Assembly (NCBI GenBank): GCA_002842035.1
Contig: PHBP01000005.1
Coordinates: forward strand, 124,001 to 188,000
From: Candidatus Cloacimonetes bacterium HGW-Cloacimonetes-2
GTDB lineage: Bacteria; Cloacimonadota; Cloacimonadia; Cloacimonadales; Cloacimonadaceae
Length of the DNA: 64,000 nt
Reading direction: 5' to 3'
In this document: in pieces, positions 27,345 through 32,685 of the stretch
How the letters are laid out: every line of letters starts with the position of its first letter
Numbering within the stretch: position 1 is the stretch's first letter
Made by a program: the position numbers and the translations under genes
Notes under the pieces: model-generated
What the model was told of the DNA's origin: nothing
Database searches by the model: none
The model's input: the letters and a program-made list of their open reading frames with translations, nothing else

Positions 27345-27971
27345 CTACTGTATATTCAACAGCTTATGAAGCTGAAGCTGCAAGCGAACATTAAGCCCGT
27401 CACGGAGGATCCAGAGTGCCAGATCTTCAGCCTTTAGGAATCTGCTCACGGGTGAGAAGTGGATAGTTTTGCCCCACAAGGCGTTATCCTCAATGAACTT
27501 CAGCGCAAATTGATAGTCGTAGAATGTCGATAAGACAAACTTCAGTTCATCGTGCTCTTTCAGAAACTTCATGTTCCACTTCATAAAAGACTCGCCCTCA
27601 CCGCTGCCCGGGCATTTAACGTCAACTATCTTAATCACATAGTCCTGGATCTCTCCGAGATAGAGCGAGCCATTGGTCTCAAGAAGGATCTTGTAGTCTA
27701 GCTCATTAAGAGCAGAGATCAGCTCTGTAATCTCATCCTGCAAGACCGGTTCGCCGCCCGTAAGTTCAACCAGCTTAGCAGGATACTTCTGCACCTCGGA
27801 GATAATCTCGGGGATGGTCATCCGCTTGCCGGGGGCATGCGAATAGCGCGTATCACAATAGAGACAATCGAGATTGCAATCGGCTAACCTGATGAAAATG
27901 CAGGGATATCCGGCATAAGTTGATTCGCCTTGCAGGCTGTAGAAGATCTCGCAAATCTCGAGTGTAACCAT
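27345..27971 (-). CDS. queE: 7-carboxy-7-deazaguanine synthase QueE
   Basis: 208 residues. The N-terminal EIFYSLQGESTYAGYPCIF is the QueE signature, followed by the radical-SAM motif CNLDCLYC, VELTGGEPVLQ and LLETNGS. It rearranges carboxy-tetrahydropterin to CDG in the preQ0/queuosine pathway. It is the last gene of the bamA-to-queE operon and its start codon overlaps the mobB stop. No other que genes are in the window. Confidence 0.93.
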   Translation of the reverse strand: MVTLEICEIFYSLQGESTYAGYPCIFIRLADCNLDCLYCDTRYSHAPGKRMTIPEIISEVQKYPAKLVELTGGEPVLQDEITELISALNELDYKILLETNGSLYLGEIQDYVIKIVDVKCPGSGEGESFMKWNMKFLKEHDELKFVLSTFYDYQFALKFIEDNALWGKTIHFSPVSRFLKAEDLALWILRDGLNVRLQLQLHKLLNIQ

Positions 27972-28720
27972 CAGGGCTTGATCCTGAGCTCGATTGAGGC
28001 ATCTTTATCGACACCTTTGAGGTTGTGTACGAAGCTCAATACGCTGTCTTTTAAAAGTTTTTGCACAAATGGAACTATCGTGAGAGCTTCGCCATTGACT
28101 AGAAGTTCAAGCTCCAGGGCAGTGTCCTGCACGCAGTCATTGCGGCTGGCACGTCCCTGCACAATATCGCAAGCCATTTGATAGCAAGTCTTTCCGCAAG
28201 CGCTGCAGCAATCAGGATCCGAACAAGGCAGGATCGGAAAACTCTTCTTAATGACTTCATCTACAAGGCTTTGCAGGCTCTTCTCAAGGCAGTAAACAGC
28301 TAAGCCTCGGTAAGTCTCGAGTTCAGATGCGATGATTCCGGAGACACCAATGGCTGTATCGTCCAGCAGTTCATCAAGTTGCGTCGTATCTTTGGCGCAG
28401 ACCAGCTTTGGCACCGGGGCATCTTTCATCCCCTCAATAATGAGGAAGTCTGAGGTGATAAGCGGGAGTATATCAGCAAGTTGCATCTTACCCGGAATAA
28501 TCAGGGAGTTGTCAAAAAGTCCTCGTGCAAAGACGCGAACTGCACCGGCATCTGCGTGCTTGGCAGAATTGGATCCGGGCTTGTCTGCGCGGTATTCTTC
28601 ACTGTGTATATCTTTGATAGAGGATACTTTATAGCCTCTTGCGGTGAGCTCGCGGATCAGGGCGGTGGCTAGAGTAGTCTTGCCGGTATGGTGATAGCCT
28701 ATCACGGCTAAAGCTTTCAT
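27971..28720 (-). CDS. mobB: MobB-like P-loop NTPase with C-terminal Cys-rich cluster domain
   Basis: 249 residues. The P-loop GYHHTGKTTL near residue 8 and the following LTARGYKVSSIKDIHSE match MobB of molybdopterin guanine dinucleotide synthesis. Residues about 165-195 add a cysteine cluster (CSDPDCCSACGKTCYQMAC then a further Cys), which may bind an Fe-S cluster, as in MobB-like proteins fused to 4Fe-4S domains. No mobA, moaA or molybdoenzyme is in the window, so the partner is unknown. It overlaps ispF by four bases. Confidence 0.85.
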   Translation of the reverse strand: MKALAVIGYHHTGKTTLATALIRELTARGYKVSSIKDIHSEEYRADKPGSNSAKHADAGAVRVFARGLFDNSLIIPGKMQLADILPLITSDFLIIEGMKDAPVPKLVCAKDTTQLDELLDDTAIGVSGIIASELETYRGLAVYCLEKSLQSLVDEVIKKSFPILPCSDPDCCSACGKTCYQMACDIVQGRASRNDCVQDTALELELLVNGEALTIVPFVQKLLKDSVLSFVHNLKGVDKDASIELRIKP

Positions 28721-29199
28721 TCGTTTACCCTTACAAGCATTAGCGTGGCATAAGCGCAGATGCCTTGCTTGCTTCCGCTGATCCCGAGTCCCTCTTCTGT
28801 GGTGGCTTTCACGCTGACAGAGCTTGTCTCCGTTTCCATATCATCGGCTAAGTTACTGCGCATCTGCATAATATACGGTGCGAGCTTGGGCTCCTGAGCG
28901 CAGATGGTGCTATCCAGATTAAGCAGGATGTAGCCCTCTGAACGGATCTTAGCATAGGCTTGGCGCAAGAGGATACGGCTGTCTATATCTTTGTAGGACA
29001 TATCATTATCAGGAAAGAGCTTGCCGATATCACCCAGAGCCAGCGCACCCAGAAGTGCATCTATGATGGCGTGGATCAGTACGTCTGCGTCGGAGTGCCC
29101 CAGGAGTCCCTTCTCAAAAGGGATCTCCACGCCTCCGAGGATCAGTTTACGTCCGCTTTCCAGCCTGTGAACATCGTAGCCAAAACCTATGCGGTACAT
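28717..29199 (-). CDS. ispF: 2-C-methyl-D-erythritol 2,4-cyclodiphosphate synthase IspF
   Basis: 160 residues from the ATG at 29199; an upstream TTG-type extension lacks similarity and overlaps the GlmS-like gene. Signatures: RIGFGYDVHRL (metal-binding Asp and His), GVEIPFEKGLLGHSDADVLIHAIIDALLGA, and KATTEEGLG with ICAYATLML. It cyclises CDP-ME phosphate in the MEP pathway. It starts four bases after the stop of the GlmS-like gene; ispD is one gene further upstream. Confidence 0.96.
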   Translation of the reverse strand: MYRIGFGYDVHRLESGRKLILGGVEIPFEKGLLGHSDADVLIHAIIDALLGALALGDIGKLFPDNDMSYKDIDSRILLRQAYAKIRSEGYILLNLDSTICAQEPKLAPYIMQMRSNLADDMETETSSVSVKATTEEGLGISGSKQGICAYATLMLVRVNE

Positions 29200-29203
29200 A
29201 GCG

Positions 29204-31984
29204 TTAGTCCACTGTGATCGACTTTGAGACGTTCTTTGGAACGTCGGGATGCACACCGTGATCCAGGACGCTGAGGCGATCAAGCTTCTTGAGCTTGCGG
29301 ATACTCATCCTAAGTGCAAGCAGTTGCAAGACGATAGTTGCCGAGAAGCAGGTCATCAAGCTGTCACCTGTCTTGGGCAGATTGATGTAGCCCCAGCCGT
29401 AGTAGGAGCCTTCGTTGGGATTGACGCTGGCATTCTTCAGGAGCTTGGCATTTTCCTCGGCAATCACATAGGTATCTGCACCCCGGATCTTATGGGTATT
29501 TATCTGGGAAATAGTGAGGTTAACGTCGCGCTCATCCGGCCCGGTCACGTAGATCAGGGGATAATTGCGGTACATAGGCTCAAAGAAATCGTGTTTTGCC
29601 ACGACCTCGCCGAAGATCTTGTTTCCGGCTGGAGAAAGATTGAATGGCATATTACGTGTAAACATATAGGTGCTCATAGCTTTAAAGAGCTCTTTTGTCT
29701 CGTTATGAGCGATACCTGCTTCGGTCGCCAGGTCATCCACCTTGTCGATCATATCGCCATAGGAACGCACGAAGTTACGCACGTGTTTCAGTCCAAAGAC
29801 GGTATTTTTGCCGAGGATGGTATTGGGTCCGTGCTTAAACTCTGATGCTTCACGACCTTCCGCGTGGTTTAGCACGGTCTCGCGGATCTTCAGAGCACCT
29901 TCCATAGCCACGCCGGTGATCTTGGTGGCGAGGATGTGCAGCGATGGCTCCATATAGATTTTGGCAGCCGTGTAATCAATCGTTTCTGCCGTATTATCAA
30001 TGGTTTCCTTGAGCAGTGAGGGAATGTTCCAGAGAGATTGATAGCGGCGCTCGATCTGGGCTTTAAGTTCGGGCAGCGAGGGGTCGTCAGAAGGTAAGAG
30101 CGAGAGCTTCATCTCGGCAGTTCGGATCGCCAGGTAGTAAAAGAGCGTCATCTGGTTCATAAAGCTCTTTGTGGCGGGCACTGCAATCTCCGGTCCGCAA
30201 AGGATGGGGATGGCAACATCGCTCTTTTCCTGTCCCAAAGTGGAATTCATATTGTTGACCAGCACAACTTTGTGCACATTGAGGCGTTTCTCGTCGATGT
30301 CATTGAAGATATCGATCAGGTCTTTGGTCTCGCCGGATTGGGAAACACCAATGATCAAGTCGTTGTCTTTGATGCAGTTCGAGTATTCTCCACGGAAGTC
30401 TCCGGGAAGAATCGGGATGATCTCGACCTTGGCTATTTCATTGAAGAAAAGAGCTGCGACCTTGGTAGCGTTAAAAGAAGTGCCGCATGCGATTGTGTAA
30501 GCATTACGGTTTGCTTCCAGAGTGATCTTTACTTGCTCGAGGAAGCCTTTGACGCTGGCTTCGAAATCCACTACGTCCACCTGTTCTGCCAAAGAATCCA
30601 GCGCTTTGGCGAGGAAGAAGCGGGAGAGCTCGTATTCTTCGCCGATCAAATCTATAAAGACGTTCTTTTCATTGGAAAAGAAGTACTTCTTGTCAAAGTC
30701 TTCTTTTACTGCGACGTCGAAGAGAGCTCGCCATTCGGTCTCGGCTTTTTGGTAGAAATGCTTATAGGTATTGGAAGCGCAGAGTTCATTAAAGACAGCC
30801 AGGCGTTCGTTGCGCTCCGCTGTCCCCAAAATTGTCAGCATTATTCCGCTGAAGTGATCCCTAAGACCCTCTTTGGTCAGTAATTCGAGCATCCTGCGTC
30901 CGGTATTGGATCCGCCCTGGAAGAGCTTGATCAGTTTGCCGGAAGATTCTGCCTGGGCATAGATCTCCTGCTCCATAAAGTATTCAAATTCGGGGAGTAG
31001 TTCTACGTCTTCGGCTCTTAGCTTGGAATAAACGGGCTGAGTAAGGATGCGTTCACCGGTCTTGTACAGCTCATCCTTGAAACCTCTGCGACGGAAGACC
31101 AGATCGCGCTGCGCATAGATCTGGTAAGCATCAGCTGTGTATTCGACAAATTCGCCTTCACGCAGATTGACCAGGAGTTTGGTAAAACGCAAGACTGCTG
31201 TGAGATCGCTGGAAGCAAGACAAAACTTGCCTTCATCGAGCTCGCCGATGCCAAAGTAAAGGCTGCTGCCGGCTTTGATTGCCCAGGAGGTTTCGGTCTC
31301 GGGATCCACGATCACCGCTGCATAGGAGCCGATCATCTTGGCTGCAGTCTGTATAATAGCACGGCGCATACACGCCTTGCGTTCTTCATGGATAGTAGGA
31401 TTGCCGGCTTTGGTCATCTCAATGTCAAAATAGTGCTCAACGCTATGCACAAGCATCTCTCCGTCGTTATCGGAAAGCACTGTATGTCCTTCCTGGGTGA
31501 GGAAGATCTTGAGCTCGCGGGTATTGGTGATATTGCCGTTGTGAGCTCCGTAGATGTGGCGCTTGCACTTCACTTCGTGAGGTTGGGCATTGGTCTTGTT
31601 GACAAAGCCAAAGGTAGCCCAGCGAACTTGTCCGCAGAAGATCTTACCGGCCTGCTTCTCGATACCCAAGGTCTTGACGAGCGTGCTGGGTGCTCCAACG
31701 TCCTTGAGCAGTGTGATCTTCTTGTTATCATCCTGAAAAGCAGCCCCCGTAGAATCGTAACCCCTGTATTCAAGAGCTCTGAGCAGAATTGAGGCATATT
31801 GTCCCAAATTGATGCTTACCCTGGGTAAAGCCAGTCCCAAGACTCCGCATCCCAGCCCCGGGATGGGTATCCTGAAGCTGAAAGAGAGCTTTTGCAGCTT
31901 GCTGATTAGCCTGATCATCGCCCGTTGGTAGCCTGAATTATGCCCGGTGTTCTGCAGCTTGTTGTCTCGCATAGGAATCCTCAT
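29204..31984 (-). CDS. large GlmS-like glutamine amidotransferase/isomerase with N-terminal extension before the catalytic Cys
   Basis: 926 residues against about 610 for GlmS. An Ntn-type glutamine amidotransferase domain begins with CGVLGLALP at residue 46, then YRGYDSTGAAF, GQVRWATFG, NAQPHEV and YGAHNGNITN. A helical insertion spans about 310-480. The SIS domains follow: first ACGTSFNATKVAALFF with GVSQSGETKDLIDIF, second LATKITGVAMEGALKIRETVLNH and FKHGP. Class II amidotransferases need a free N-terminal Cys, so the 22-45 residue extension is probably removed as a propeptide, or glutaminase activity is altered. Starts at ATG 31984 (overlapping the ispD stop) or 31972 are both possible. 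The sugar substrate is presumably fructose 6-phosphate, but the length leaves this open. Confidence 0.85.
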   Translation of the reverse strand: MRIPMRDNKLQNTGHNSGYQRAMIRLISKLQKLSFSFRIPIPGLGCGVLGLALPRVSINLGQYASILLRALEYRGYDSTGAAFQDDNKKITLLKDVGAPSTLVKTLGIEKQAGKIFCGQVRWATFGFVNKTNAQPHEVKCKRHIYGAHNGNITNTRELKIFLTQEGHTVLSDNDGEMLVHSVEHYFDIEMTKAGNPTIHEERKACMRRAIIQTAAKMIGSYAAVIVDPETETSWAIKAGSSLYFGIGELDEGKFCLASSDLTAVLRFTKLLVNLREGEFVEYTADAYQIYAQRDLVFRRRGFKDELYKTGERILTQPVYSKLRAEDVELLPEFEYFMEQEIYAQAESSGKLIKLFQGGSNTGRRMLELLTKEGLRDHFSGIMLTILGTAERNERLAVFNELCASNTYKHFYQKAETEWRALFDVAVKEDFDKKYFFSNEKNVFIDLIGEEYELSRFFLAKALDSLAEQVDVVDFEASVKGFLEQVKITLEANRNAYTIACGTSFNATKVAALFFNEIAKVEIIPILPGDFRGEYSNCIKDNDLIIGVSQSGETKDLIDIFNDIDEKRLNVHKVVLVNNMNSTLGQEKSDVAIPILCGPEIAVPATKSFMNQMTLFYYLAIRTAEMKLSLLPSDDPSLPELKAQIERRYQSLWNIPSLLKETIDNTAETIDYTAAKIYMEPSLHILATKITGVAMEGALKIRETVLNHAEGREASEFKHGPNTILGKNTVFGLKHVRNFVRSYGDMIDKVDDLATEAGIAHNETKELFKAMSTYMFTRNMPFNLSPAGNKIFGEVVAKHDFFEPMYRNYPLIYVTGPDERDVNLTISQINTHKIRGADTYVIAEENAKLLKNASVNPNEGSYYGWGYINLPKTGDSLMTCFSATIVLQLLALRMSIRKLKKLDRLSVLDHGVHPDVPKNVSKSITVD

Positions 31985-32685
31985 CAGAAGTTCTTGTCCA
32001 CGATTAGATTAGCTAGAAACCAATCTGTCTCGTCGGTAATTTTAAGATTGAGTTCGCTGGAAGGCAGGATATAGACCTTCTCCCCACAATATTCAAGGAT
32101 GGAAGCATCGTCTGTGCTAAAGAATCCATCCTCATAAGCCTTTTGATAGCATGTATGGATTAGATGATAGTTAAAAACCTGCGGTGTATAGACCTGCACC
32201 AGGTGTGAACGGTTCAGAGTCTGCTGGATCAGATTGCCGGAAACCTGTTTTACAGTATGCTTGAGCGGAGCAGCCGGCACCACTGCCTGATGGATGATCA
32301 CCCGGCGATACAGCTCTTCCAGAAAGCTGACGGTGATAAAGGGACGCACTCCATCGTGGATAAAGACGTAATCCGTATCAGGGGGACATGCCTGCAACGC
32401 TCCAAAGATACTATCCTGACGCTCTGCGCCTCCGGGGATGACCTTCAGAGGCTTCTCGGGCTGATCCAGGAAGTCGTTGATCAGGCTCTCGCAGAGGGCA
32501 ATATCATCCTCTGGCGCTGTAATCAGGATATTAGAGATCAGCGGGCAATTCAGAAAGACAGACAGACTGCGGATAAAGACAGGGATTCCACCCAGGGAGC
32601 GGAATTGCTTCTTGACTGTTCCACCCATCCTGGTGCCGCTTCCGGCTGCGGTGATGATTGCGGTGCTTTGGCTTATATCTTCCAT
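31984..32685 (-). CDS. ispD: 2-C-methyl-D-erythritol 4-phosphate cytidylyltransferase IspD
   Basis: 233 residues. AIITAAGSGTRMGGTVKKQF is the CTP-binding loop, followed by YVFIHDGVRPF and PAAPLKHTVK, all typical of IspD. It makes CDP-methylerythritol in the MEP pathway. It overlaps the radical-SAM gene upstream by 13 bases and the GlmS-like start downstream. Confidence 0.95.
   Translation of the reverse strand: MEDISQSTAIITAAGSGTRMGGTVKKQFRSLGGIPVFIRSLSVFLNCPLISNILITAPEDDIALCESLINDFLDQPEKPLKVIPGGAERQDSIFGALQACPPDTDYVFIHDGVRPFITVSFLEELYRRVIIHQAVVPAAPLKHTVKQVSGNLIQQTLNRSHLVQVYTPQVFNYHLIHTCYQKAYEDGFFSTDDASILEYCGEKVYILPSSELNLKITDETDWFLANLIVDKNF

Follow-up and report, generated by a model that had tools for sequence, protein, structure and literature searches.

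The long GlmS-like gene and its leader

In a window of 64,000 nucleotides from Candidatus Cloacimonetes bacterium HGW-Cloacimonetes-2 (contig PHBP01000005.1, positions 124,001 to 188,000; positions below are those of the window), we have characterized a gene for a long GlmS-like class II amidotransferase in which a short leader precedes the predicted catalytic cysteine. The open reading frame (ORF) is open on the minus strand from 31984 to 29204, stop codon included, and its product has 926 residues; all parts of the gene given below are on this strand. The assignment is based on the ORF, on Pfam and NCBIfam matches and on a structural model. Pfam finds the GATase_6/GATase_7 and SIS domains, and the best NCBIfam matches are the glmS models, both below their cut-offs (278 bits against 418 for the GlmS equivalog model TIGR01135 and 290 bits against 381 for the glmS model NF001484).

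Class II amidotransferases use an N-terminal cysteine. The first-pass annotation, made from the letters of this DNA, had located the N-terminal nucleophile (Ntn) motif CGVLG at residue 46 behind an in-frame leader, and both were confirmed, the motif occupying residues 46–50. Alignment of the active sites makes Cys46 (codon 31847–31849) the predicted Ntn nucleophile and mature N-terminus; the codon ahead of it is GGA, for glycine. The leader, residues 1–45 (31850–31984), is seen in alignments, and the model has low confidence there (predicted local distance difference test, pLDDT, <50 at residues 1–16 and 33–45). Its conserved core is formed by residues 35–45 (FSFRIPIPGLG; 31850–31882), as supported by 60 distinct Cloacimonadota rows and further N-termini. 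The ATG of residue 1 overlaps the stop codon of the upstream gene ispD (TGATG), and AGGA stands five bases ahead of the ATG of residue 5; a true start at Met5 (31972) appears at least as likely as one at Met1 or Met23.

Glycine occupies position −1 in 60/60 distinct Cloacimonadota homologues and in all 32 further Cloacimonadota N-termini, some of them near-identical to the first set (of 34 additional rows, L018 and L022 had already been counted in that set). The N-terminus was read in 90 of the 94 Cloacimonadota genomes with the long form; outside the 90 are G102 and G122, where the matches lack the N-terminus, and G008 and G037, whose contigs, judged by coordinates, are apparently those of L050 and L070, both of which carry the leader. 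Rows in which the Cys was not aligned (L048 and L075) and rows with fewer than 820 residues after the Cys were dropped before counting; the short rows include L050, L070 and L071, whose N-termini match the pattern of their own groups. In no Cloacimonadota row that was read does the Cys directly follow the initiator Met, Gly being at −1; what is found is a leader directly before the nucleophilic Cys, the arrangement of the MEROPS C44 precursors.

Further upstream, −3 is Gly in 55 and −6 is Pro in 53 of the 60 distinct rows, and hydrophobic residues predominate at −2, −5, −7, −9 and −11. The conserved core is a stretch of alternating hydrophobic residues, containing Pro and Gly, that ends in most rows with G-x-G immediately before the Cys. 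The length of the leader varies, the shortest observed having 13 residues (L112, MKFIFYIPILGVG). The basic amphipathic segment noted at first pass ahead of the motif turned out to be the part that varies, and it is nearly absent in L112; the conserved part is the Pro/Gly hydrophobic core.

Third codon positions at −11 to −1 are highly variable (1.57–2.00 bits) and second codon positions are nearly fixed (0–0.5 bits) at −11, −9, −7, −5, −3, −2 and −1; thus the leader is translated and selected as protein. The ratio of proportions of nonsynonymous and synonymous differences (pN/pS), computed over 120 pairs with saturated pS, is 0.46 for −11 to −1, 0.66 for −20 to −12 and 0.17 for the first 15 mature codons.

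Within its own genome the long protein is the only class II amidotransferase with a leader. A search with PF13522 yields four such proteins: the long protein, a canonical GlmS starting M-CGIVG, a PurF starting M-CGIIG and an AsnB-like protein starting M-CGISG. A DNA pattern encoding P-hydrophobic-x-G-hydrophobic-G-C-G has one match in this genome, in the long gene, and none in the control. As proposed at first pass, we aligned the protein with long GlmS-like proteins of related phyla; such relatives exist, and the leader is restricted to Cloacimonadota (60/60), Met-Cys without a leader being found in 20/20 distinct long rows from elsewhere. In a second non-Cloacimonadota set, which overlaps these 20, Met is directly ahead of the Cys in 21/21 rows.

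Active-site residues

The active sites were compared in 87 rows (60 Cloacimonadota, 20 other long and seven canonical proteins), with residue numbers that we take to be those of E. coli GlmS. Identical in 87/87 rows are C1, R26, G27, R73, W74, H97, N98, G99 and D123 in the glutaminase part, together with C300, G301, S347, Q348, S349, T352, V399, K485, E488, K503 and H504. K603 is kept in all rows except one that ends early (59/60 in Cloacimonadota). Smaller deviations are Y28 to F in 9/60 Cloacimonadota rows, T302 to S in 19/20 non-Cloacimonadota long rows and 1/60 Cloacimonadota rows, and T76 and S303, each deviating in a single row. Three replacements mark the whole long class: H77 to F (Y in three rows), H86 to Q and S401 to A. 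The Q at the H86 equivalent is presumably as in PurF.

The residues of the glutamine site (C1, R73, W74, N98, G99 and D123) are therefore complete in 60/60 Cloacimonadota and 20/20 other long rows, and those of the fructose-6-phosphate site, including K485, E488, H504 and K603, are present as well. The first-pass annotation had left a choice between a leader cleaved as in PurF and a lost glutaminase. Since the leader is real, fixed in Cloacimonadota and placed ahead of an intact glutaminase site (C1, R26, R73, W74, N98, G99 and D123 in 60/60 rows), cleavage as in PurF appears much likelier, and the second branch of that choice is disfavoured.

Predicted fold and extra length

An AlphaFold2 model of the full protein, computed from 34 rows (pLDDT 81, predicted template modelling score, pTM, 0.79), superposes on GlmS/GFAT from residue 46 on. 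Matches of this predicted model include 6svq (Z 39.3), 1jxa (Z 38.4, root-mean-square deviation 3.0 over 581 residues) and 2j6h (TMt 0.81). A class II glutaminase followed by SIS domains in a GlmS fold, the architecture of GlmS/GFAT, is thus what the model predicts. Confidence is low (pLDDT <50) at residues 1–16, 33–45, 123–125, 704–728 and 916–926, so the model does not fix the poses of leader, KHGP loop and C-tail.

The glutaminase domain, with the class II amidotransferase fold, spans approximately residues 46–325 (31010–31849), as indicated by GATase_6 and GATase_7 and by superposition on 1xff (Z 31.8 over 237 residues). It is followed by insertion 1, an all-helical domain at about residues 345–455 (30620–30952; alignment and models), and by the first SIS domain at residues 492–620 (30125–30511; Pfam and alignment), which contains CGTS and SQSGET. 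The sugar-isomerase catalytic stretch EGALK...E...KHGP, with the equivalents of K485, E488 and H504, was placed by alignment at about residues 691–726 (29807–29914), a region of low model confidence at 704–728. Insertion 2, at about residues 728–806 (29567–29803; alignment and full model), comes after the KHGP motif and is modelled as helical. The C-tail (29207–29272) ends in PKNVSKSITVD, and by alignment K921 is the K603 equivalent; model confidence is low at 916–926.

Counted from the Cys, the long protein has 881 residues, and the canonical GlmS of the same genome has 611 with its Met. The excess over GlmS, put at 300 residues at first pass, comes to about 270 residues, or 315 if the leader is counted; it consists chiefly of two insertions and not, as then supposed, of one large one. 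Insertion 1 folded with its flanks (residues 338–494, 32 rows) is all-helical with pLDDT 92 and pTM 0.86. No match to it was found in the PDB, the best Foldseek hit having E 1.3 and the best VIA-align hit Z 3.5; such an absence of a match does not establish a new fold. Both insertions have only sub-threshold matches in Pfam, and for insertion 1 neither these nor the structural hits gave a lead to function. The leader-less relatives have 824–905 residues from the Cys and align with both insertions, so the presence of the insertions does not go together with that of the leader. As to their role, we would guess at regulation or subunit contacts.

Distribution, phylogeny and gene neighbours

The long form was found in 94/124 Cloacimonadota genomes (E up to 1e-60), in 18/140 genomes from the phylum to which the Myxococcales record G124 belongs, and in 2/144 from that of the Bdellovibrionales record G125 (E up to 1e-150 in both). 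Beyond these three phyla the survey consisted of one scan of genome contigs with short peptide patterns, which returned 42 loci: Cloacimonadota, Myxococcales/deltaproteobacterial and Bdellovibrionales records, plus L064, titled only 'bacterium'. The protein is therefore not an odd single GlmS; it belongs to a long class that is present, without the leader, in Myxococcales, Deltaproteobacteria and Bdellovibrionales records as well.

A FastTree phylogeny of 60 leader-bearing, 33 other long and seven canonical GlmS proteins, rooted on the canonical ones, recovers the 60 leader-bearing rows as a single clade (support 1.0), whose sister group (support 1.0) consists of L073 and L137, two rows from the Bdellovibrionales record's phylum. 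Because the leader rows form one clade next to these leader-less proteins, the simplest reading is that the leader was gained on the Cloacimonadota stem. Among the long forms, the deepest split, that of L142 and L143, is weakly placed (0.288). These two, from genomes G198 and G168 in the phylum of the Myxococcales record, are diverged long GlmS-like proteins starting M-CGIVS.

The gene lies between ispD, directly upstream (31984–32685, minus strand; PF01128), and ispF, directly downstream (28717–29199, minus strand; PF02542). The order ispD, long GlmS, ispF (28717–32685 in the window) is kept in most Cloacimonadota rows, with ispD upstream in 54/60 and ispF downstream in 57/60; the remaining rows include short contigs. 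Neither gene was found in the flanks of the 20 non-Cloacimonadota rows (up to 6 kb per side, often less), and ten non-Cloacimonadota loci, with ORFs crudely picked, have no neighbour common to all. The pairing suggests co-expression with isoprenoid-precursor genes and no more; with neither neighbour seen outside Cloacimonadota, the context gives no mechanism, and we rejected an assignment of function from gene neighbours. L066 and L074 both have an upstream ORF that by eye looks like FtsZ. In the window a MobB-like protein is encoded at 27971–28720 (PF03205 over cut-off), with a possible Fe-S stretch in its C-terminal half (PF04060, below cut-off).

Occurrence beside canonical GlmS

The long form was sought in 124 Cloacimonadota genomes and TIGR01135 in 121, of which 98 have a match at 1e-40 and 88 a match over the cut-off; genomes lacking the long form were identified by elimination from the handles G000–G123. 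TIGR01135 scores 138–152 bits on pieces of long forms and 466–855 bits on the copies over cut-off. Of the 70 good genomes (completeness of 90% or more, contamination of no more than 5%), 43 carry the long and the canonical form, 13 the long form only (G020, G023, G018, G034, G053, G040, G039, G041, G096, G097, G078, G033 and G069) and 14 the canonical form only; none lacks both. In G033 and G069 the sole TIGR01135 match is the long locus itself, below cut-off. Absence of canonical glmS recurs in groups, namely in G020, G023, G034 and G064 of genus g6 and in G040 and G048 of family f6.

Nine of the 13 long-only genomes have two matches each to the long-protein query (E up to 0.001), where canonical-bearing genomes typically have four. 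SIS matches in the long-only genomes are the long form, proteins of ~330–350 amino acids, proteins of ~200–230 amino acids and, in some, proteins of ~340–370 amino acids; the first of these size classes would fit KdsD and the second GmhA. In G020, G023, G034 and G053 the only SIS matches are the long form and one protein of 204–231 amino acids. The NagB family PF01182 was found in 0/16 genomes (controls positive in 9/14). The uridylyltransferase part of GlmU is present in 14/16 genomes at no less than 266 bits, none passing the full GlmU cut-off, so a use for glucosamine-6-phosphate exists. Given these co-occurrence, SIS, NagB and GlmU surveys, the long form can probably serve as the sole glucosamine-6-phosphate synthase.

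The GlmU matches (G000:C2:415190-416152 and relatives, 14/16 Cloacimonadota genomes) comprise the uridylyltransferase part only, in ORFs of ~250–360 amino acids. The matches in G018 are confined to fragments at the ends of contigs, and those in G044 are all weak.

Proposed maturation and alternative explanations

We consider it reasonably probable that these proteins form a separate long GlmS class making glucosamine-6-phosphate, and that its Cloacimonadota branch carries a propeptide whose Gly-Cys bond is broken, most likely by Cys1. With its glutaminase, SIS domains and two helical insertions, the enzyme would convert fructose-6-phosphate and glutamine to glucosamine-6-phosphate. On the Cloacimonadota stem the initiator Met ahead of the Cys would have been replaced by a short propeptide, whose last 10–12 residues would be an extended, hydrophobic segment that usually ends in Gly-x-Gly. 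The precursor would fold first; the Gly-Cys bond would then be broken, most likely through an attack of Cys1 on the carbonyl ahead of it, as happens in PurF and further Ntn hydrolases, and glutamine would thereafter be hydrolysed by the Cys so exposed. That −1 is invariant while its neighbours vary points to chemistry at that bond. Next to the conserved leader, the intact active-site residues and the distribution, which are observed, and the fold, which is predicted, we infer from sequence the cleavage, its self-catalysis and the product.

Precedents for single steps are available. Removal of Met1 of GFAT is described in connection with the role of Cys2 (PMC7948480), and autocatalytic propeptide cleavage is described for many PurF enzymes (PMC7056826). 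Family C44 of MEROPS is described as holding self-processing precursors of PurF and glutamate synthase (PMC5753285), with the Cys preceded by a few residues that are removed autocatalytically (PMC9140057). In the T1C mutant of the proteasome beta5 subunit the cut propeptide is reported to lie in the substrate channel as an antiparallel strand (PMC4792962); the alternating hydrophobic core of the leader would, by analogy, suit such a pose.

Several observations weigh against this reading. By pN/pS, the leader core (0.46) changes faster than the start of the mature protein (0.17); F (or Y) and Q at the H77 and H86 equivalents throughout the class make the glutamine site not identical to that of GlmS; and the NCBIfam equivalog model rejects the long protein (278 of 418 bits). 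The co-occurrence is modest, the absence of good genomes with neither form having P 0.04 on the assumption of independent genomes. The genomes, drafts at that, are not independent, so the co-occurrence is support and not proof. In two less complete genomes, G049 (82%) and G060 (59%), neither form is seen, and the same may hold for G082, G108 and G109, where the long form is missing and which are absent from the TIGR01135 lists. Finally, 43/70 good genomes have both forms, and in these the long form may yield another product.

This last point underlies an alternative that we regard as doubtful, in which the long form makes another amino sugar phosphate and canonical GlmS, where apparently missing, has been lost in assembly gaps. 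This would agree with the finding that 8/8 genomes from other groups also have a second, canonical-sized GlmS-like ORF (as two fragments in G129), with Ala at the S401 equivalent and with two insertions that may reshape the site. Yet T302 (Ser in most non-Cloacimonadota rows), S303, S347, Q348, S349, T352, V399, K485, E488, H504 and K603 are kept, and the losses of the canonical form cluster in genus g6 and family f6, which random gaps would not readily produce. As to maturation, it is unlikely that the leader is removed by a separate peptidase, house-keeping or signal-type, perhaps once the basic N-terminal part, which many leaders do have, has targeted the protein to the membrane. That part is variable and nearly absent in L112, by eye the window leader has no long hydrophobic core, and the leader-end DNA pattern occurs once in the genome, so that no shared set of protease substrates is seen. 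Cleavage between Gly and Cys might at first glance be taken for the processing of a lipoprotein, but a lipobox has Leu, Val or Ile at −3, where the leader has Gly in 55/60 rows and otherwise Ser, Thr or Phe; with the N-terminal part not conserved either, a bacterial lipoprotein was rejected.

A retained leader, with the glutaminase blocked and the enzyme using ammonia or acting as an isomerase only, seems improbable. It could draw on the fact that cleavage is deduced and on the biology of the Cloacimonadota, amino acid fermenters of ammonia-rich places. Against this, C1, R73, N98, G99, D123 and the W74 gate are invariant in 60/60 rows, although one would expect the site to decay if the glutaminase were dead; free ammonia is a poor substrate for E. 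coli GlmS; and the invariance of Gly at −1 points to chemistry at its bond. We give hardly any credence to an artefact of start codon or frame, with the real protein beginning at or near the Cys. Start codons are indeed read from the sequence, and some rows have a Leu, Val or Met codon at −2 that could be used as a start, but such an error is refuted by the Gly found at −1 throughout the Cloacimonadota rows that were read, and by selection at the protein level that extends to −11 or beyond, unless translation starts inside the core in some rows.

The preferred reading, a long GlmS class with a cleaved propeptide in Cloacimonadota, can be carried further, and here our confidence falls slightly short of even. 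The class would be a second type of glucosamine-6-phosphate synthase, not classed so far, its inactive Cloacimonadota precursor freeing the catalytic Cys by cutting itself at Gly-Cys after a strand-like propeptide; it would have replaced canonical GlmS in some lineages and would contain a helical domain with no match found in the PDB.

Comparison with known systems

GlmS is the textbook class II amidotransferase needing Met removal only, and a conserved propeptide on a GlmS-type enzyme would mean that the maturation route of PurF and glutamate synthase was invented again in another branch. None of the titles and passages covered by a literature search, subscription papers excluded, deals with a propeptide on a GlmS-type enzyme or with the GlmS of Cloacimonadota. 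Genomes scored as lacking glmS may carry the long class, which the standard glmS model rejects.

The long protein shares with GlmS/GFAT the order of domains, the predicted fold (Z 38–39), the catalytic residues of glutaminase and isomerase and the Schiff-base lysine of the C-tail, and is 27% identical to E. coli GlmS in the structural alignment. It differs by the leader, the two helical insertions, the replacements of H77 by F and H86 by Q and a score below the glmS equivalog cut-off. Among its closest counterparts are the long GlmS-like proteins of the Myxococcales, deltaproteobacterial and Bdellovibrionales records, which are of the same length class, align over both insertions and, in the rows compared, are 45–51% identical to it, but start with Met-Cys, have no leader and have no ispD or ispF in the flanks examined. 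Cloacimonadota, with the leader, and the Bdellovibrionales and Myxococcales relatives, without it, thus offer a natural before-and-after pair for the origin of Ntn self-cleavage.

In the arrangement of its N-terminus the protein resembles the propeptide-bearing PurF of the B. subtilis type and the glutamate synthase precursors, all having a class II glutaminase with a short leader directly ahead of the nucleophilic Cys; its AHNGNITN stretch is also PurF-like. Unlike in these enzymes, the acceptor part is of the GlmS type and not a phosphoribosyltransferase or synthase, and the PurF of the same genome has no propeptide. The leader ends differ too: the propeptide of B. subtilis PurF ends in acidic residues, whereas the leader of the long protein ends, as a rule, in Gly-x-Gly.

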